Below are positions 4,245 to 14,978 of a DNA stretch of 64,000 nucleotides, piece by piece. The notes beneath the pieces were generated by a model, which was not told where the DNA came from, searched no databases, and worked only from the letters and a program-made list of their open reading frames with translations. The stretch is from Halorussus gelatinilyticus (GTDB lineage: Archaea; Halobacteriota; Halobacteria; Halobacteriales; Haladaptataceae). Made by a program: the position numbers and the translations under genes. Numbering within the stretch: position 1 is the stretch's first letter; every line of letters starts with the position of its first letter. The DNA is taken from positions 186,001 through 250,000 of the forward strand of contig NZ_CP096658.1 of NCBI RefSeq assembly GCF_023238445.1, in the 5' to 3' direction.

Positions 4245-5438
4245 TCAGTTCGTGGATACGATGTCGATGACGTCCCGACTGTCGAGTTGCGTATTCGCGC
4301 CGACCTGCCGGTTGCTCCGGCAGTCGATGCCGTGGAGGAATCCCTCGCCGAGGTCCGAGTGGATGTGGTGGGCGAAGTCCTCGGCGGTCGCGCCCTCCGG
4401 CAGGAGGAAGCAGTCGGGTAGGACCTCCCCGTTCTCGTTGCCCAGTCCGTTCGCGCCGCCGGGGAAGACCGGCACGAGGCCCAGTTCGTCGAACAGCGCC
4501 CCTTCGAGCGCGCGCTGGACGCCGGTGCCGTCGAACTCCGTGACGAACTCCTCGATGGCTTCCAGCCCTTCGCGCTGGTCGCCCGACACGTCGCCGACGA
4601 TTTCGAAGTCGCCGTCGCCGGGGCGGTACTCGACCGCGCCCTGTTCGTCGGCCTGCTTCAGGGCTTTCTCGGCGTGCGCGGAGACCGGCACGACCGTCAG
4701 ATGCTCGTAGGCGGGGTCGCTGGTAATCTCCTCGAAGTTCGCTCGGGCCTCGGGCGTGTCCATCTTGTTCGCGGCGACGACCATCGGCTTGGTCGTCTTG
4801 CGAATCTCGCGGGCCAGTTCCTCGCGGTCGGTCTCGTCCCACTCGGCGGGGTCCAGCGACAGGCCGAGCGAGAGGATTTCCCGCTTTATCTCGTCTTTGT
4901 TCGTCCGGAACGCGCTCATCTGCTCGGCCAACTCGACCTCGATGTCGTCCTCGTTACCGTCGTAGCCGCTCTCGTAGCGGTCGATGCCCTTCTCCAGCAC
5001 TTCGAGGTACCACATGTCGAGTTCGTTTTCGAGGAAGTCGATGTCCTCGCGGGGGTCGTGGCCCTCCGTCGGTTCGCCCTCGATGTCCGTCTTCCCGGAG
5101 AAGTCCACGACGTGGACCAGCACGTCGGCCTCGTTCAGGTCGGTCAGGAACTGGTTACCCAGTCCCGCACCCTCGTGGGCACCGGGAATCAGGCCCGCGA
5201 CGTCCACTAGTTTCGTCGGGACGAACCGGGTCCCGTCGTCGCAGTAGCCGACGTTCGGCGTACACTCCTCGTCGAACTCCGGCGCGGCGCACTCGACGCG
5301 GACGTACGCCTCGCCCACCGCGGGGTCGATGGTCGTGAAGGGGTAGGCCCCTTCCGGCACGTCGTTCATCGTCGCGGCGTTGAAGAACGTGGACTTGCCG
5401 ACCGAGGGCTTGCCCACGAGACCGATTTTGTAACTCAT
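4245..5438 (-). CDS. Obg-family GTPase, archaeal YchF/OLA1-like, with TGS domain
   Basis: 397 residues. G1 is GKPSVGKS at residues 8-15, G3 lies in 'LVDVAGLIPGAHEGAGLG', and G4 is NKMD in 'VVAANKMD'. Bacterial YchF and OLA1 carry a changed G4 and prefer ATP; the canonical NKxD here argues for GTP. The last 80 residues form a TGS domain ending in 'GANTQLDSRDVIDIV'. The family binds ribosomes and is linked to translation and stress. A reversed TATA box lies 27 bp ahead of the ATG, so the mRNA is probably leaderless. Confidence 0.92.
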   Translation of the reverse strand: MSYKIGLVGKPSVGKSTFFNAATMNDVPEGAYPFTTIDPAVGEAYVRVECAAPEFDEECTPNVGYCDDGTRFVPTKLVDVAGLIPGAHEGAGLGNQFLTDLNEADVLVHVVDFSGKTDIEGEPTEGHDPREDIDFLENELDMWYLEVLEKGIDRYESGYDGNEDDIEVELAEQMSAFRTNKDEIKREILSLGLSLDPAEWDETDREELAREIRKTTKPMVVAANKMDTPEARANFEEITSDPAYEHLTVVPVSAHAEKALKQADEQGAVEYRPGDGDFEIVGDVSGDQREGLEAIEEFVTEFDGTGVQRALEGALFDELGLVPVFPGGANGLGNENGEVLPDCFLLPEGATAEDFAHHIHSDLGEGFLHGIDCRSNRQVGANTQLDSRDVIDIVSTN

Positions 5439-5647: not shown

Positions 5648-6979
5648 ATGGACCTGAGCGGTCGCGTCGCCGAAACCGTCGAGTCGTCAGCGGGACACGC
5701 CTCGTTTCTCGGTCAGTGGGCGCTCTACCGCGCAATCGAGGATTTGGACCCGCCGCGCGACGAGACGCTCTGGGTCTTCGGCGCGCAGGGCGGCGCGGCG
5801 TTCGCGGACAACGCCAAGTACCTCTTCCTCCACGTCGCGGCCGAACGCCCCGATATTCGACCGGTCTGGCTCTCGAAGGACCCCGAAGTCGTCCGCGAAC
5901 TCCAGCGAGCGGGCTTCGAGGCGTACCGCTGTTACTCGCCGCGGGGGCTCCTGCTGACGCTCCGGGCGGGCGTCGTCTTCCTGACGCAGGGCCACCGAGA
6001 CCTCGCCATGCCAGCGACGGCGGGCGCGTTCGCCGTCCTGCTCTGGCACGGGGTGCCGCTCAAGCGCATCTCGTGGGACGCCGGGTTCCGCGAGTTACCG
6101 AAACCGCTCCGGCGCGCCCACGCCGACATGGCCGACGAGTTCGACCTGCTGACGGTGCCCGGCGAGGGCGTCGCCGACCAGTTCGCCTCTGGCCTCCGCA
6201 TCGACCGCGAGCGAATGGCGCTGACGGGCTACCCCCGAAACGACGCGCTCTTCGGCGCGATTCCCGGCGAGACGGTCGGGATGGACGGCGCGGCGCTCGA
6301 CCGAATACGGGACCTCGCCGACGGGCAAAAGCTGGTCTTCTATCTGCCGACGTTCCGGGAGTGGACCGACGAGTCGGTCGCCGACCGCCTCGACCTCCCG
6401 GCGCTCGATTCGTTTCTCGCCGAGCGCGACGCGACGCTCGTCGCGAAGACCCACCCGCGCGACAGCCTCGACCTGCCCGACGGTCTCTCGCACGTCGTCG
6501 CCCTCCCGGAAGCGACCGACGTCTACCCCTTCCTCCGGTACGCCGACGCGCTCGTCACCGACTACTCGTCGGTCTACTTCGACTACCTCCTGCTCGACCG
6601 GCCGGTGGTCTTCTACGCCTACGACCGCGACGAGTACCGCGCCCGCCGGGGGTTCTACTTCGACTACGAGTCGGTCGCGCCCGGCCCGGTCGCCGACTCG
6701 TTCGAGGACTTGCTCGCGGGTCTCGACGGTGCGCTCGACCCGACCGCGGACTCGTACGCGAACGCTCGCGCGGCGGTCCGCGCGCAACTCCTCGGGGGCG
6801 ACCCGGCCGTTCCGGAATCGACGGACGCGAGCGGGGTCGGCGAGTCGCGGGTCGTCGCCGACTGCGCGCCCGCCGCTCCGCGCTCGGCCGCGGTCGTCTC
6901 CGCCGTCCGTCGGCGACTCGCCGCGTCAGCGACGGACGAAGAAAAACCGCGGGAGAGCGCCCGGATACGTAATCTATAG
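5648..6979 (+). CDS. CDP-glycerol glycerophosphotransferase family protein (TagF-like)
   Basis: 443 residues from the ATG at 5648. The TagF/TagB catalytic domain is nearly complete: WHGVPLKRISWD (HG-P-K motif), GYPRNDALF, 'VFYLPTFREW', 'KTHP', 'DVYPFLRYADALVTDYSS' and RGFYFDYES. In teichoic acid synthesis this family transfers glycerol- or ribitol-phosphate from CDP-alcohols to a growing polymer on the inner face of the membrane. No membrane segment is visible, as in TagF. The C-terminal 75 residues are low complexity. The neighbours (glycerophosphodiesterase, LicC-like cytidylyltransferase) fit a polyol-phosphate pathway. Longer upstream starts in frame are possible but the extension is Arg-rich. 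Confidence 0.87.
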   Translation: MDLSGRVAETVESSAGHASFLGQWALYRAIEDLDPPRDETLWVFGAQGGAAFADNAKYLFLHVAAERPDIRPVWLSKDPEVVRELQRAGFEAYRCYSPRGLLLTLRAGVVFLTQGHRDLAMPATAGAFAVLLWHGVPLKRISWDAGFRELPKPLRRAHADMADEFDLLTVPGEGVADQFASGLRIDRERMALTGYPRNDALFGAIPGETVGMDGAALDRIRDLADGQKLVFYLPTFREWTDESVADRLDLPALDSFLAERDATLVAKTHPRDSLDLPDGLSHVVALPEATDVYPFLRYADALVTDYSSVYFDYLLLDRPVVFYAYDRDEYRARRGFYFDYESVAPGPVADSFEDLLAGLDGALDPTADSYANARAAVRAQLLGGDPAVPESTDASGVGESRVVADCAPAAPRSAAVVSAVRRRLAASATDEEKPRESARIRNL

Positions 6980-7011
6980 CGGACTCTATCGATTCGGTTG
7001 CGGTCGCCAGC

Positions 7012-7021
7012 AATATTTATA
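7012..7021 (+). promoter_or_regulatory. TATA box upstream of glycerophosphodiesterase gene
   Basis: AATATTTATA, the most A+T-rich stretch of this intergenic region. It implies a start near 7040 and a leader of about 75 nt, longer than at most genes in this window. Confidence 0.5.
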
Positions 7022-7113
7022 CCCGATGAGAAAGCTTCAAGTTCGCCTCGGCGAAACCCCCGGCTAAGGGTGGCAGTAACGCCTCCGCGGACAACGAGGC
7101 GCTCGAACTCAAT

Positions 7114-7998
7114 ATGGTACAAACGAGCGGAACGACAGGGCAGGACGCGCCGAATCGGGCCGACGTATCGCTCATCGCCCACCGCGGGTTCGCGGGGGTC
7201 TACCCCGAGAACACGGTCGCCGCGGTCGAACAGGCGGCGTCGGGCGTCGCCGTGGGCGCGAGTCCGGAGATGGTCGAAATCGACGTGATGCCGACCGCGG
7301 ACGGCGAAATCGTCACGTTCCACGACTCGGACCTCGGCCGGGTGACGGACGCACCGGCCGACCTCGCCGACCGGAAAGTCTGGGAGACGCCGTACGAGAC
7401 GCTCGCCGAGTTAGACGTCCTCGGGACCGGCGAGCGGGTCCCCACGCTCGAGGAGATTCTCGACGCCCTCCCCGCCGACGTGGGCGTCAACGTCGAGTTC
7501 AAGAATCCGGGGTCGGCCGACGTGCGCCCCCGCGAGAACCTCCCGCCGGAGGCCCGCGACGAACAGCGCGAACTCTGGCAGGAGTTCGCCGAGGACGTTC
7601 TCGACGCGCTCTCGGCGACCGACCACGAGGTGCTGGTCTCGTCGTTCGCGGAGGGCGCGCTCGCGGCGGTCCGCGAGGCCGACCCGTCGGTCCCCGTCGC
7701 GGCGGTGTTCGCCGACTCCATCGCCGACGGGATGGAGATCGCCCGCCGGTACGACTGCGAGGCGGTCCATCCGCCGTGGAACGCCATCGCCGACACCACG
7801 CTGTTCAACGCCGAGTACGGGACGCTCGGACCGTTCGAGGACATCGACGTCGTGGAACTCGCCCACGAGGAGGGCCGCGAGGTCAACGCGTGGACCGTCG
7901 AACGCTGGTACGAGGCCGACCGACTCCGACGGGCGGGCGTGGACGGCGTCATCGCCGACTACCCCGGCGTCCTCCAGTTCGGCGGCGCGGCCGACTGA
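7114..7998 (+). CDS. Glycerophosphodiester phosphodiesterase (GDPD family)
   Basis: 294 residues with the GDPD signature: 'LIAHRGFAGVYPENT' (catalytic His-Arg at residues 23-24), 'EIDVMPTADGEIVTFHD' (metal ligands and second catalytic His), 'NVEFKNPG' and a C-terminal 'VNAWTVE'. The family hydrolyses glycerophosphodiesters to glycerol phosphate and an alcohol. No signal peptide is seen, so action is cytoplasmic. It lies between the TagF-like gene and the cytidylyltransferase-phosphatase fusion, all in the same direction, suggesting recycling or trimming of glycerophosphate-type products. Confidence 0.9.
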   Translation: MVQTSGTTGQDAPNRADVSLIAHRGFAGVYPENTVAAVEQAASGVAVGASPEMVEIDVMPTADGEIVTFHDSDLGRVTDAPADLADRKVWETPYETLAELDVLGTGERVPTLEEILDALPADVGVNVEFKNPGSADVRPRENLPPEARDEQRELWQEFAEDVLDALSATDHEVLVSSFAEGALAAVREADPSVPVAAVFADSIADGMEIARRYDCEAVHPPWNAIADTTLFNAEYGTLGPFEDIDVVELAHEEGREVNAWTVERWYEADRLRRAGVDGVIADYPGVLQFGGAAD

Positions 7999-8090
7999 CG
8001 CCGCCCGCGCCGAACTACCTGACACCGCACCGAGACGCGGCCGGCAAGGTTAAGAACGTCTGCGTTGGCTACTGGTCCGGTGAATTATCT

Positions 8091-9710
8091 GTGAAGGGGG
8101 TAATCTTAGCGGCCGGTATCGGGTCTCGACTCCGACCGCTCACGCTTCAGAAGCCGAAGTCTTGCATCGAAGTGGACGGGACGCCGATTCTCGCGCACCA
8201 ACTCCGGGCCTACGCCGACGCCGGCGTGACAGACGTGACCGTCGTCGCGGGCTATCTGGCCGACGACGTGCGGGCGCTCTGCGAGGCGGTCGGCGAGGCC
8301 CGGCCGGAACTCGACGTGACCGTCCGCGAGAGCGAGGTGTTCGCCAACACCGACAACATGTATTCGCTGTATCTGACCCGCGAGGACGTCGCGGGCGAGC
8401 CGTTCGTCCTGACCAACGGCGACGTGGTGTTCGAACCGGAACTGCTCGAAGACCTGCTGGACGCGCCGGCCGGGAGCGCCGTCGCCACCGACGCCGAGAC
8501 CTTCTCCGAGGAGGCGATGAAGGTGACGGTCGGCGACGACCGCGTGACCCACATCGCCAAGGACGTAGCCGAGGACGTCGCCTACGGCGTCTCGACCGAC
8601 GCGTATCGCTTCTCGGCGGACTTCTCCGAGATGCTGTTCGAGGAACTGACCCGGACCATCGAGCGCGAGGGCGACTACGGCGACTGGACCGAGGCCGCCA
8701 TCGACCGCCTCGTCGGTGACCGCGACCACGACGTCGGCGTCGCGGACGTGTCCGGGCGTCGCTGGGTCGAAATCGACGACTTCGAGGACCTCCGGACCGC
8801 CGACCGGCGGTTCGCCTCGCTGTCGTCCCTCGGCGAGAAGGAGGCGATTTTCTTCGACCTGGACGGGACCGTCTATCTGGACGACGACCTCGTGGAGGGG
8901 GCCGACGAACTCGTCGCGTCGCTCCGCGAGGCGGGCGTGGACGTCTACTTCCTGACGAACAACTCCTCGAAGTGGAAGGACGACTACGCCGACCGCCTCT
9001 CGAACCTCGGGATTCCGGCCGTTCCCGAGGACGTGCTCCTCTCGACGGACGGGGTTCTCCAGCACCTCCGGCGCACCGACCCGGACGGGGTGTTCGTCCT
9101 CGGCACCGAGACGATGGCCGACGCGCTGGCCGACCACGGCGTCGATGTCGTGACCGACCCCGAACCGGGCGAGGACGCGCCCGACACCGTCGTCGTCGGC
9201 TTCGACACCGAACTCACCTACGAGAAGGCCCGGAAGGCGACCCTCGCAATCCGGGACGGCGCGACGTTCCTGCTGGCCCACCCCGACACGGTCTGCCCGA
9301 CCGCGGAGGGATTCGTGCCGGACTGCGGTGCCATCGGCGCGATGATAGAGACCGCGACCGACCGGTCCCCGGCCCGCGTCTTCGGCAAGCCCAACGCCGA
9401 GATGGTCGCGCCCATTCTCGACGCCGAAGGGTACGCGCCCGAGGCGGTCGCCGTGGTCGGCGACCGACTGGAGACCGACGTGCGACTCGCCGAGAACGTC
9501 GGCTGCGAGTCGGTCTGCGTGCTGTCGGGCGACGCGACCCGCGAGGAGGTCGAGGCGAGCGACCGGTCGCCGACGATGGTCGCGCCCTCGGTCGCCGCGC
9601 TCCGCGAGTTCGTCGCGCCGACCCCGGAACGCGAGTCCGGCGAGCGCGTTTCCTCCGGAGACGAACCGGTCGCGTCGCCGGACGGCGGGGAGGAACCGAC
9701 CGGTGAGTGA
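8091..9710 (+). CDS. Fusion: LicC-like nucleotidyltransferase + HAD-IIA (NagD-like) phosphatase
   Basis: 539 residues in one frame. Residues 1-245 are a nucleotidyltransferase: GVILAAGIGSRLRPLT, 'KPKSCIEVDGTPI', 'FANTDNMYSLYL', 'VLTNGDVVF' and 'WVEIDDFEDL'; the 'NMYSLYL' and 'EIDDFEDL' pieces resemble choline/alcohol-phosphate cytidylyltransferases (LicC) rather than hexose enzymes. Residues 250-500 are a HAD-IIA phosphatase: FFDLDGTVYLD (motif I), 'FLTNNSSK' (II), 'FGKPNAEM' (III Lys) and 'VVGDRLETDVRLAEN' (IV). An acidic low-complexity tail follows. Inference: one domain makes or removes a phosphorylated alcohol, the other activates it with CTP. The GTG start opens exactly at the NTase motif. 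The stop overlaps the next gene by 8 nt. Confidence 0.88.
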   Translation: MKGVILAAGIGSRLRPLTLQKPKSCIEVDGTPILAHQLRAYADAGVTDVTVVAGYLADDVRALCEAVGEARPELDVTVRESEVFANTDNMYSLYLTREDVAGEPFVLTNGDVVFEPELLEDLLDAPAGSAVATDAETFSEEAMKVTVGDDRVTHIAKDVAEDVAYGVSTDAYRFSADFSEMLFEELTRTIEREGDYGDWTEAAIDRLVGDRDHDVGVADVSGRRWVEIDDFEDLRTADRRFASLSSLGEKEAIFFDLDGTVYLDDDLVEGADELVASLREAGVDVYFLTNNSSKWKDDYADRLSNLGIPAVPEDVLLSTDGVLQHLRRTDPDGVFVLGTETMADALADHGVDVVTDPEPGEDAPDTVVVGFDTELTYEKARKATLAIRDGATFLLAHPDTVCPTAEGFVPDCGAIGAMIETATDRSPARVFGKPNAEMVAPILDAEGYAPEAVAVVGDRLETDVRLAENVGCESVCVLSGDATREEVEASDRSPTMVAPSVAALREFVAPTPERESGERVSSGDEPVASPDGGEEPTGE

Positions 9711-10521
9711 GGGCGAGCGGCGCGACGACGCCGACCCGCGCACCGTCCGCCGCGGGTACGTCACCCAGACCCACACCGGCGCAGTGCCGTGGGACGACGC
9801 GCTCCGCGCGGCGTCACGAATCGGGTTCGACTTCGCGGAACTGTACCTCGACGGCGCGACCGAGCGCACCCGAATCGACCCGAACGCGGTCGGGTCGCTG
9901 GCGGCCGAGGCGGACCTCGACCTGCTGGTCCACCTCCCGTTCGTAGACCTCGAAATCGGGTCGCCCCGCGACCCCGTTCGCGAGGGGTCGCTCTCCGAAC
10001 AGCGCGCCTGCATCGAAGTTGCCAGCGAGATGGGTGCCGAGAAGGCGGTCCTCCACGCCGGAACCAGCGCCCGGCCGCCCGAGTGGGAACTGGACGAAAT
10101 CGCGCCCCACCTGCTGGACTCCGTCCGAGTTCTGGACCGGTTCGCGGCCGACCGCGACGTGGAAATCTGCGTCGAGAACCTGCCGGGCGTCCCGTTCACG
10201 GTCCACCACCTCGACCGCGTGTTCGCCGAGACCGAGGCCAGCGCGACCTTCGACACGGGCCACGCCCGCGTTGACGGACTGGACGCCGAGGAGATGGCCG
10301 ACTTTCTGGACGCTCACGGCGACCGAGTCTCGCACGTTCACGTCAACGACGCCCGCGAGGACGCCGACGAACACGTCCCCACGGGGTCGGGGACCACCGA
10401 CTTCGAGACCGCGCTGGCACCCCTGCGCGAGGGCTGGACGGGCACGGTCTCGGTCGAGGTCTACACCTTCGACTTCGACTATCTGGAACTCAGCGCCGAG
10501 AAGTTGGACGAGTTCCTCTGA
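9703..10521 (+). CDS. Sugar phosphate isomerase/epimerase (AP endonuclease 2-type TIM barrel)
   Basis: 272 residues starting with GTG inside the end of the fusion gene, so translation is probably coupled. Features of the xylose isomerase-like TIM barrel: 'GFDFAELYLD', 'LVHLPF', 'AVLHAG', 'ICVENLPG', 'ATFDTGHA', 'SHVHVNDA' and 'VSVEVYTFD', with the Glu/Asp/His/Glu metal ligands at strand ends. The family isomerises or epimerises sugars and polyols. Tight linkage suggests that it supplies or converts the alcohol used by the upstream nucleotidyltransferase; this is inference. Confidence 0.85.
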   Translation: MSEGERRDDADPRTVRRGYVTQTHTGAVPWDDALRAASRIGFDFAELYLDGATERTRIDPNAVGSLAAEADLDLLVHLPFVDLEIGSPRDPVREGSLSEQRACIEVASEMGAEKAVLHAGTSARPPEWELDEIAPHLLDSVRVLDRFAADRDVEICVENLPGVPFTVHHLDRVFAETEASATFDTGHARVDGLDAEEMADFLDAHGDRVSHVHVNDAREDADEHVPTGSGTTDFETALAPLREGWTGTVSVEVYTFDFDYLELSAEKLDEFL

Positions 10522-10560: not shown

Positions 10561-11520
10561 ATGCGAGCAGTTCGCTACCACGAGCAGGGCGGCCCGGACG
10601 TACTGACGGTCGAAGACGTCGAGCGACCCGACCCCGGCGATGGCGAGGTTCGCGTCGAGGTCCGAGCGGCGGGCGTCAACCCGGTGGACACCTACTTCCG
10701 GGAGGGGAGCTACGACCCGCCGGAACTCCCGATGATTCCGGGGTCGGACTTCGCGGGCGTCGTGGACGCGGTGGGCGACGGGGTGACCGACTTCGCGGAG
10801 GGCGACCGCGTGTTCGGCACCGGACTCGGCAACGACCGGCAGGGGACCTACGCCGAGTTCGCCGTCGCGCCGACCGACCGCGTGGCCCGACTGCCCGACG
10901 GCGCGGACTTCGCCGCGGGCGCGGCGGTCGCGCTGGTCGGCGTGACCGCGTGGCGCGCGCTGGTGGACCACGCCGGACTCGACCCGGCCGAGACCTGCCT
11001 GATTCACGGCGGGTCGGGCGGCGTCGGCCACGTCGCGGTCCAACTCGCCGATTCGATGGGCGCACGGGTCGTCACGACCGCCTCCGAGGAGTACCACGCG
11101 CAACTCGAAGAACTGGGCGCGGACGCCCCGGTCGAGTACGACCGCGAGGACCTCGCCGACGTCGTTGTCGAGGCGGCGGGCCGCCCGGACGTAATCTTGG
11201 ACCACCGCCTCGACCAGTACCTCGACTTCGACGCCGAGGTCGGCACGCAAGGGGTCCGGGTCGTCGGCATCGGCAACACGGAGCCAGCGGCCGGATTCGA
11301 GAACGTCGCGGCGGCCCGCGGCAAGGAGATGGAACTCCGTCTGATGAGCATGTTCAATACGCCCGACATGGCCGCCGTCCTGCGAAAGCTGGCGCGACTC
11401 CTCGAAGCCGGGGACCTCGAACCGCGGGTCTCGAAGACCTACGACCTCGACCACGCCGCCGACGCCCAGAAGGCGGTCCTGCGCAACAGTTTCCTCGGCA
11501 AACTAGTGATAGAGCCGTGA
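10561..11520 (+). CDS. Quinone oxidoreductase-like MDR family dehydrogenase
   Basis: 319 residues. N-terminal GroES-like domain ('MRAVRYHEQGGPDVL', 'VRAAGVNPVDTYFREG') and a Rossmann domain with 'LIHGGSGGVGHVAVQLA' near residue 146. Zinc ligands of true alcohol dehydrogenases are missing, so it belongs to the zinc-free NADPH:quinone reductase (QOR) branch. It starts 39 bp after the isomerase gene and might be cotranscribed, but its role in that cluster is unclear. Confidence 0.88.
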   Translation: MRAVRYHEQGGPDVLTVEDVERPDPGDGEVRVEVRAAGVNPVDTYFREGSYDPPELPMIPGSDFAGVVDAVGDGVTDFAEGDRVFGTGLGNDRQGTYAEFAVAPTDRVARLPDGADFAAGAAVALVGVTAWRALVDHAGLDPAETCLIHGGSGGVGHVAVQLADSMGARVVTTASEEYHAQLEELGADAPVEYDREDLADVVVEAAGRPDVILDHRLDQYLDFDAEVGTQGVRVVGIGNTEPAAGFENVAAARGKEMELRLMSMFNTPDMAAVLRKLARLLEAGDLEPRVSKTYDLDHAADAQKAVLRNSFLGKLVIEP

Positions 11521-12966: not shown

Positions 12967-14112
12967 ATGAGATTACACGAGTATCAGGCGAAGCGGGTCT
13001 TCGCCGACGCAGGGATTCCGACGCCGGACGCGACGCTGGCGTCGTCGGTAGACGAGGTAGTCGAGGCGGCCGAGGACATCGGCTACCCCGTCGCCGTGAA
13101 GGCACAGGTACACGTCGGGGGCCGCGGGAAGGCCGGCGGCATCAAGCTCGCCGAGAGCCGCGAGGAGGCCGAGCAGGTCGCCGACGAGATTCTCGGGATG
13201 GACCTCAAGGGCTACCACGTCGAGCGCGTGCTGGTCGAAGAGGCCGTGGACTTCGTGAACGAACTCTACGTCGGCGTGACGATGGACCGCGGCGAGGGCA
13301 AGCCCGTGGCGATGGTCTCTACCAAGGGCGGCGTCAACATCGAGGAGGTCGCCGAGGAGGACCCCGACGCCATCGCTCGTGAACACGTGGACCCGGCGTT
13401 CGGGATGCACCCCTATCAGGCCCGGAAGGTCGTCTACGACGCGGGCGTCCCCCGCGAACTCGCTAACGACGTGGCGAGCGTCCTCCAGACGATGTACCAG
13501 CTCTGGGACGACCGCGACGCCAGCGAGGTCGAGATCAACCCGCTGATGGTCACGGCGGACGACGAAATCGTCGCGGCCGACGCCGTGATGAACATCGACG
13601 ACGACGCCCTGTTCCGCCAGCAGGAACTCGCCGACATGGAAGAGGAGACCTTCGAGGACGACCTCGAACGCAAGGCCGGCGAGTACGGCTTCGACTACGT
13701 TCGACTCTCGGGTAACGTCGGCATCATCGGCAACGGTGCCGGACTCGTGATGACGACGCTCGACCTCGTGGACTACTACGGCGGCGAACCCGCCAACTTC
13801 CTCGACATCGGGGGCGGCGCGAAGGCCGAGCGCGTGGCCAACGCCCTCGACATGGTGTTCTCCGACGAGAACGTCGATGCCGTGGTCTTCAACATCTTCG
13901 GCGGCATCACCCGCGGTGACGAGGTGGCCAAGGGCATCAACGACGCGCTCGAACAGTTCGACGAGATTCCCAAGCCCGTGGTCGTCCGCCTCGCCGGTAC
14001 CAACGCCGCAGAGGGCCGCGAGATTCTGAACGACGACCTCGTCACGGTCGAGGAGACCCTCGAAGACGCGGTTCAACGCACGGTCGAATACTCCGAGGAG
14101 GAAGCACAATGA
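12967..14112 (+). CDS. sucC: Succinate-CoA ligase (ADP-forming) subunit beta
   Basis: 381 residues, full length. Begins '[20 protein letters not shown]' and has the ATP-grasp features '[15 protein letters not shown]', 'NPLMV' (metal site in 'VEINPLMV') and the CoA-ligase part '[14 protein letters not shown]' and '[16 protein letters not shown]'. With SucD it interconverts succinyl-CoA and succinate in the citric acid cycle, making ATP or GTP. It overlaps sucD by 4 nt (ATGA). Confidence 0.97.
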
Positions 14113-14978
14113 GCGTTCTAGTCGATTCCGACACCAGAGTCGTCGTACAGGGCATCACCGGCGGGGAAGGCAAGTTCCACGCCGAGCAGATGATGGACTA
14201 CGGCACCAACGTCGTGGCCGGCGCGGTGCCGGGCAAGGGCGGCCAAGAGGTCGACGGCGTGCCCGTCTACGACACCGTCCACGAGGCGGCCCGCGAGGAG
14301 GACGCCGACGCCTCGGTCGTCTTCGTCCCGCCCGCGTTCGCGGGCGACGCCGTCTTCGAGGCGCTCGACGCGCCGCTCGACCTCGTGGTCGCAATCACGG
14401 AGGGCATCCCCACGCAGGATATGGCGAAGGTCAACAAGCGCCTCTCCGAGGTCGATACCCGACTCATCGGTCCGAACTGTCCGGGCATCATCACCCCCGG
14501 CGAGTCGAAGCTGGGTATCCTGCCGGGCAACATCTTCGAGTCGGGCGACGTCGGTCTCGTCTCCCGGTCGGGCACCCTCACCTATCAGGTCGTCTCGAAC
14601 TTAACCGACCGCGGCATCGGCCAGACCACCGCCATCGGCATCGGCGGCGACCCCATCATCGGCACGGACTTCATCGACGCGCTCGAACTGTTCGAGAACG
14701 ACCCCGACACGAAGGCGGTCGTCATGTGCGGCGAAATCGGCGGCGAGGACGAGGAGGAGGCCGCTCAGTTCATCGCCGAGAACATGGACACGCCGGTCGC
14801 GGGCTTCATCGCGGGCCGGACCGCACCGCCGGGCAAGCGCATGGGCCACGCCGGAGCCATCGTCTCCGGTAGCGGCACCGGCACCGCCCAGAGCAAGATC
14901 GACGCGCTGAACGACGCCGGCGTCCCGGTTGGCGACACGCCGAACGAAGTCGCGGACCACATCGAAGACTTCCTGTAG
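14109..14978 (+). CDS. sucD: Succinate-CoA ligase (ADP-forming) subunit alpha
   Basis: 289 residues, full length. CoA-binding Rossmann start '[17 protein letters not shown]', '[10 protein letters not shown]', '[12 protein letters not shown]' and '[12 protein letters not shown]', then the phosphohistidine segment '[20 protein letters not shown]'-like with the active His in 'MGHAGA'. Forms the catalytic pair with SucC, to which it is translationally coupled. A T-rich stretch at 15007-15017 follows. Confidence 0.97.

Follow-up and report, generated by a model that had tools for sequence, protein, structure and literature searches.

Phosphodiester chemistry of the teichoic-acid type is considered a bacterial trait. 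What, then, is a TagF-like glycerophosphotransferase gene doing in the haloarchaeon Halorussus gelatinilyticus, at the head of a group of four genes? The window considered here is a 64-kb stretch of the 3.67-Mb chromosome (contig NZ_CP096658.1, positions 186,001 to 250,000), and the group occupies its positions 5648–10521, between ychF and sucCD. The open reading frame coordinates agree in full with an earlier reading of the letters alone (below, the sequence-only reading): four co-directional genes on the + strand, the last two overlapping by 8 nt. After TagF come a cytosolic-type glycerophosphodiester phosphodiesterase (GDPD), a fusion of a LicC-like nucleotidyltransferase (NTase) with an HAD-IIA phosphatase, and a TIM barrel of family PF01261.

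Judged by its sequence, the cluster reads as one writer, formed by the NTase and TagF, and three phosphoester hydrolases, that is, GDPD, the HAD-IIA domain and the TIM barrel, which resembles Endonuclease IV (EndoIV). The catalytic motifs are intact in all parts. On balance, we favour the view that the cluster is a cytidine diphosphate (CDP)-alcohol-dependent phosphodiester 'write and remove' module. As structure and gene partnership suggest, the LicC-like half of the fusion would form a CDP-alcohol from cytidine triphosphate (CTP) and the phosphate of a small alcohol, glycerol being the likeliest. The TagF-like enzyme, whose motifs are in place, would then move the alcohol phosphate from CDP to an acceptor hydroxyl, forming a phosphodiester. 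From their families, GDPD and the EndoIV-like enzyme would be expected to cut phosphodiesters, and the HAD-IIA domain a small phosphate ester; between them, the three hydrolases could keep the product in check, recycle it, remodel it or provide the precursor.

Linkage of the four genes and the TagF–NTase pair

The NTase very probably supplies the donor of TagF, and the strongest evidence for this is that the TagF–NTase pairing recurs. TagF-like genes were found in 54 of the 195 Halobacteriales genomes surveyed, and in at least 43 of these 54 an NTase of some type lies within about 3 kb. In other families, the NTases that adjoin TagF, or overlap with it, are stand-alone and belong to two further subfamilies; some of the pairs are part of glycan islands that also encode glycosyltransferases and ABC transporters. 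A Solidesulfovibrio plasmid carries TagF and a member of the phosphocholine-cytidylyltransferase family as a pair of overlapping genes.

The full-length fusion is present in 30 genomes, all of which have TagF. The question put by the sequence-only reading, whether the four genes keep together, has a positive answer: in 21 of these genomes (from Halorussus, the sister genus g2 and family f5) all four are found within about 10 kb, in shuffled order. Four f6 genomes have kept TagF, the fusion and GDPD and not the fourth gene, and three Halorussus genomes have kept all four, divided between two places. The remaining two are a fragmented metagenome-assembled genome and a genome (G162) whose fusion is unlinked and whose TagF is divergent. 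The gene order is APE2-TagF-GDPD-fusion in f5, an arrangement also seen at the Halohasta litorea locus, while GDPD is flipped in f6, the genes still being neighbours. Since order and strand differ between the families, the linkage is more than frozen synteny, and the grouping of the four genes is beyond chance. Maximum-likelihood trees place the fused NTases in a single clade (support 100/99) and 28 of the 29 sampled TagF partners in another (96/95), the exception being that of G162; the two clades have co-diversified. A contig search with TagF alone yielded seven loci, five in Halorussus, one in Halohasta and one in a metagenome-assembled genome of the Halobacteriales. Haloferax volcanii is absent from the control genomes with a PF04464 match.

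In the Halorussus genome, no convincing match was seen to a dedicated wall-teichoic-acid synthase of CDP-glycerol (TagD) or CDP-ribitol (TarI/IspD-type). The best TagD score is 31.7 bits (cut-off 165.4), and no convincing full-length IspD or TarI is seen, as the best IspD hit, at 29.8 bits (cut-off 27), spans only 52 of 221 positions and is taken to be a short NTase sub-domain match. Phosphoenolpyruvate (PEP) mutase has no match at E 0.001. This makes the LicC-like domain the leading candidate for producing the TagF donor. The genome has one glycerol kinase, so glycerol-3-phosphate should be available.

Several other occurrences of these genes were noted. The plasmid NZ_CP100401 of Halorussus aquaticus (L089) has a large glycan island that contains a second TagF–NTase pair along with polysaccharide lyases and genes resembling those of polysialyltransferase and N-acetylneuraminate synthase. 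In family f7 (L059:9806-13757), TagF and a stand-alone NTase adjoin ychF; since ychF is also the neighbour in Halorussus, the two may share an old position on the chromosome. On two rhizobial plasmids (L111, L112), LicC-like NTases lie beside genes of PEP mutase, an aminotransferase, a CDP-alcohol phosphatidyltransferase-type and an asparagine synthase-like protein; these clusters are probably responsible for phosphonolipid or phosphonate modification.

The transferase and the fusion protein

The TagF-like protein scores 210 bits with the PF04464 profile (gathering cut-off 22.1). Its catalytic motifs, called near-complete before, are in fact all present (HGVPLK at residues 134–139, YPRND at 195–199, PTFR at 234–237, KTHP at 267–270, TDYSS at 304–308) and, as HGxPLK, YPRND, PT[FW]R, xxH and TDYSS, align with the structure 3l7i. 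The fold family and the catalytic motifs are common to this protein and the poly(glycerol/ribitol phosphate) transferases TagF, TarF and TarL (PDB 3l7i, 8va1; capsule polymerases Cps3D, Bcs3). In contrast to them, it is a stand-alone archaeal protein of 443 aa, and its donor apparently comes from a LicC-like NTase, not from TagD or TarI. The NCBIfam equivalog cut-offs are missed by far (TarF, 101.1 against 550 bits; TarL, 72.1 against 1000; TarB, 45.7 against 500). Characterised TagF-type transferases use CDP-glycerol or CDP-ribitol. Archaeal TagF-like proteins have already been annotated as such, that of a methanogen under teichoic acid biosynthesis, and the presence of one alone is not new.

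Both parts of the fusion are well over the Pfam cut-offs (PF12804/PF00483 for the NTase, PF13344/PF13242 for HAD). In a phmmer search of solved structures with the NTase domain, LicC comes first (1jyk, 8e-18). In the predicted structure of the fusion only the NTase half is usable, the HAD half having pLDDT of about 30; with the NTase half, Foldseek puts PntC, IPCT and LicC in the lead, before the RmlA/GalU-type enzymes. The VEID motif is aligned to the EID segment of LicC. The claim of a LicC-like cytidylyltransferase fused to a phosphatase holds as to the fusion itself, and the relatives favoured by both searches are NTases that use CTP with alcohol phosphates or phosphonates. From sequence and model, the NTase domain is best read as a predicted cytidylyltransferase, closer to LicC, IPCT and PntC than to the hexose-1-phosphate enzymes. 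It differs from these three in being joined to an HAD-IIA phosphatase and genetically partnered with TagF, with no choline or phosphonate genes nearby.

The HAD domain scores 132.8 bits with TIGR01460 (cut-off 100.15) and has all of the HAD motifs I–IV. TIGR01460 membership and the motifs are shared with other HAD-IIA phosphatases (NagD, TM1742, PH1952, glycerol-3-phosphate/phosphoglycolate phosphatases), from which it differs by its position behind an NTase. A search of bacterial plasmids returned no record spanning 80% of the fusion. In an uncultured lineage of the same phylum (L114:6048-7550, L115:1254-2756, L116:7960-9480), there is an NTase-HAD fusion in which LAAGxGSRLRPLT is replaced by the altered signature LAANDNPQLRPLN; its NTase half may be inactive or repurposed.

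By description, the Halorussus cluster may be likened to the pneumococcal gtp1-gtp2-gtp3 genes with wchX of serotype 23F (CDP-2-glycerol), where a nucleotidyltransferase, a 'phosphotransferase' and a glycerol-phosphate transferase are encoded in one locus (PMC3493582). The pneumococcal locus differs in being a capsule cluster with a dehydrogenase. The gtp3 product may be HAD-like.

The phosphodiesterases and the surroundings of the cluster

GDPD scores 126.7 bits with PF03009 (cut-off 23.6), its catalytic HR, ExD and H residues are in place, and the protein has no hydrophobic N-terminal segment. The Halorussus genome has one more GDPD outside the cluster. In genome G133 (L054:13352-15290), two GDPD copies adjoin the TagF–fusion pair.

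The fourth gene had been labelled a polyol/sugar isomerase, a label for the family that is probably wrong for this member: the protein scores 108 bits with PF01261, far over the Pfam cut-off, and every NCBIfam isomerase or epimerase model listed is far below its cut-off. In CpEndoIV, the metal ligands are His75, His115, Glu153, Asp187, His190, His229, Asp237, His239 and Glu269 (PMC13113976), and the pattern scored was H, H, E, DxxH, H, DxH, E. Eight of the nine ligands are matched in the alignment with M. tuberculosis EndoIV (H77, H118, E158, D184, H187, H213, D222, H224); the ninth, E252, falls outside this alignment and was assigned by position. None of the nine varies among ten orthologues taken from the survey or in an alignment of five members, and L-ribulose-5-phosphate 3-epimerase, aligned in the same search, misses several of them. 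Because the EndoIV ligand set is complete and no isomerase cut-off is reached, we predict, with moderate confidence, that the protein is a metal phosphodiesterase of the EndoIV/CbiR type and not an isomerase. An isomerase step making the polyol is hence doubtful.

CbiR, a cobamide-remodelling phosphodiesterase of the PF01261 superfamily (PMC7733943), is the top NCBIfam match, at 84.5 bits. As this is below the cut-off of 105 and the deoxyribonuclease IV model gives 43.9 against 244 bits, the protein, although it matches the nine EndoIV ligands, differs from both EndoIV and CbiR in falling under the equivalog cut-offs, and the cluster has no cobamide or repair genes. Cobamide remodelling was rejected, since CbiR is below the cut-off and no cobamide genes were recognised among the neighbours, which are only partly annotated. 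The fold comparison does not tell the two apart: all are TIM barrels, with Z of about 24 for epimerases and 21.1 for EndoIV of T. thermophilus; the pLDDT of the model is under 50 at residues 83–95 and 221–228, the latter segment containing two ligands.

Coordinates of the genes, domains and neighbouring features are collected in the table. The intergenic gaps across the four genes are 134, 92 and −8 nt, the overlap of the fusion and the TIM barrel being at 9703–9710. Given the possible promoter ahead of GDPD, TagF may be on a separate transcript from the other three genes.

Features of the cluster and its neighbours (positions in the window)
Feature	Position	Strand	Remarks
ychF	4245-5438	-	upstream neighbour of the cluster
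TagF/TarF-like glycerophosphotransferase, PF04464	5648..6979	+	ATG, 443 aa; motifs HGVPLK, YPRND, PTFR, KTHP, TDYSS
TTTATA-like sequence, possible promoter	7014..7022	+	some 95 nt ahead of GDPD; spotted by eye, sequence only
Cytosolic-type GDPD, PF03009	7114..7998	+	ATG, 294 aa; motifs AHRG, EID, HD
NTase-HAD fusion: LicC-like nucleotidyltransferase (about residues 1-245) and HAD-IIA, NagD-type phosphatase (about 250-510)	8091..9710	+	GTG, 539 aa
NTase domain, predicted CTP:alcohol-phosphate cytidylyltransferase	8091..8840	+	motifs LAAGIGSRLRPLT...PK, NGDVVF, VEID
HAD-IIA phosphatase domain	8841..9710	+	motifs DLDGT, NNSS, GKPN, GDRLETD
AP-endonuclease-2/xylose-isomerase-like TIM barrel, PF01261; predicted metal phosphodiesterase	9703..10521	+	GTG, 272 aa; nine EndoIV-type ligands
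Zinc-ADH/quinone oxidoreductase-like gene, outside the core	10561..11520	+	adjoins the cluster in most Halorussus and the sister genus
sucCD	12967-14978		downstream neighbour of the cluster

The quinone-oxidoreductase-like gene is also close to the cluster in one f6 genome, G099. In several Haladaptataceae (L072, L073, L079, L043), an SDR gene and two tandem transporter-like genes (family f16, SNF-type in appearance) lie just downstream of the cluster; they are absent from the window. A reductase as the fifth core member was rejected, as the SDR genes near several clusters are unrelated paralogues outside the window's own family.

Competing readings and what the cluster may mean

Several points weigh against the 'write and remove' module. 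With NCBIfam, the NTase domain scores slightly higher against the archaeal GlmU (77 bits) and AglF (74) models than against IPCT (67), and, with the scores split between users of uridine triphosphate and of CTP, CTP and an alcohol phosphate can only be called predicted substrates. The sequence-only reading would have fallen had the fusion been a hexose-1-phosphate thymidylyl- or guanylyltransferase; this case is disfavoured by LicC in phmmer and by PntC, IPCT and LicC in Foldseek. Moreover, a phosphatase joined to the NTase would compete for the NTase substrate unless it acts elsewhere. The altered-signature fusion of the uncultured lineage has glycan-type genes around it and no TagF nearby. 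Finally, no glycosyltransferase, flippase or polymerase is found within the window cluster, and the absence of glycosyltransferases leaves a 'teichoic-acid-like polymer' unproven.

How else could the locus be explained? The sequence-only reading had proposed a CDP-polyol made via an isomerase step and a teichoic-acid-like decoration of a surface glycan, lipid or S-layer protein. The TagF family and its pairing with donor synthesis agree with this proposal, as do the glycan islands around the pairs of other haloarchaea, the isomerases belonging to PF01261 and the epimerases at the top of the fold comparison. However, it is unlikely, given the full EndoIV-type ligands of the fourth protein, its scores under the isomerase and epimerase cut-offs, and a core with neither reductase nor glycosyltransferase whose neighbours are ychF, sucCD and other housekeeping genes and which, unlike several TagF–NTase pairs of other families, is in no glycan island. 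That the cluster serves catabolism or salvage, with GDPD and the EndoIV-like enzyme freeing glycerol phosphate, HAD dephosphorylating it, and the NTase and TagF acting in storage or detoxification, would suit three of the five catalytic units being phosphoester hydrolases by family or active site, and the possible own promoter of GDPD. It is improbable, as it leaves unexplained both the tight evolutionary pairing of the NTase with TagF and the NTase–TagF pairs of other families that have none of these hydrolases. The NTase might instead activate phosphonate or phosphocholine, not a polyol phosphate, and TagF transfer that group: LicC and PntC are among the nearest solved structures, and the rhizobial relatives of the NTase domain adjoin PEP mutase and a CDP-alcohol transferase. 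This is quite improbable with a transferase of the TagF type, whose characterised members take other donors, and with no PEP mutase match in the genome, on which ground phosphonate activation by the PntC pathway was rejected.

Returning to the 'write and remove' module, its components carry different weight. Glycerol as the alcohol is an even call, and sequence cannot tell the glycerol phosphate enantiomer, or another alcohol phosphate. An acceptor on the cell surface is conceivable, with the balance slightly to the contrary: given the lack of glycosyltransferases and the housekeeping surroundings, one may equally well think of a lipid headgroup or a soluble phosphodiester as of a surface glycan. 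The identity of the polyol, the acceptor and a location at the surface are all inferred. A more specific and rather speculative version is that the cassette puts glycerol phosphate on a cell component in a reversible manner, the fusion making and limiting the CDP-alcohol, TagF writing, and GDPD and the EndoIV-like enzyme erasing.

The open literature searched, with few subscription journals covered, contained nothing on haloarchaeal TagF or CDP-glycerol pathways, and in it the combination of the NTase-HAD fusion, TagF, GDPD and the EndoIV-like protein appears to be undescribed, the component families being known. If true, reversible decoration would be the first case, among archaea that have no peptidoglycan, of teichoic-acid-type chemistry coupled to a turnover of its own. 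The fourth gene likely represents a new phosphodiesterase activity for the PF01261 fold, whose members easily receive an isomerase label. Researchers of cell envelopes and lipids gain four concrete genes and two enzymes to study. The conserved pairing of TagF with a LicC-like NTase in several haloarchaeal families would mean that a separate, archaeal route leads to CDP-activated alcohols and to decorations linked by phosphodiesters.

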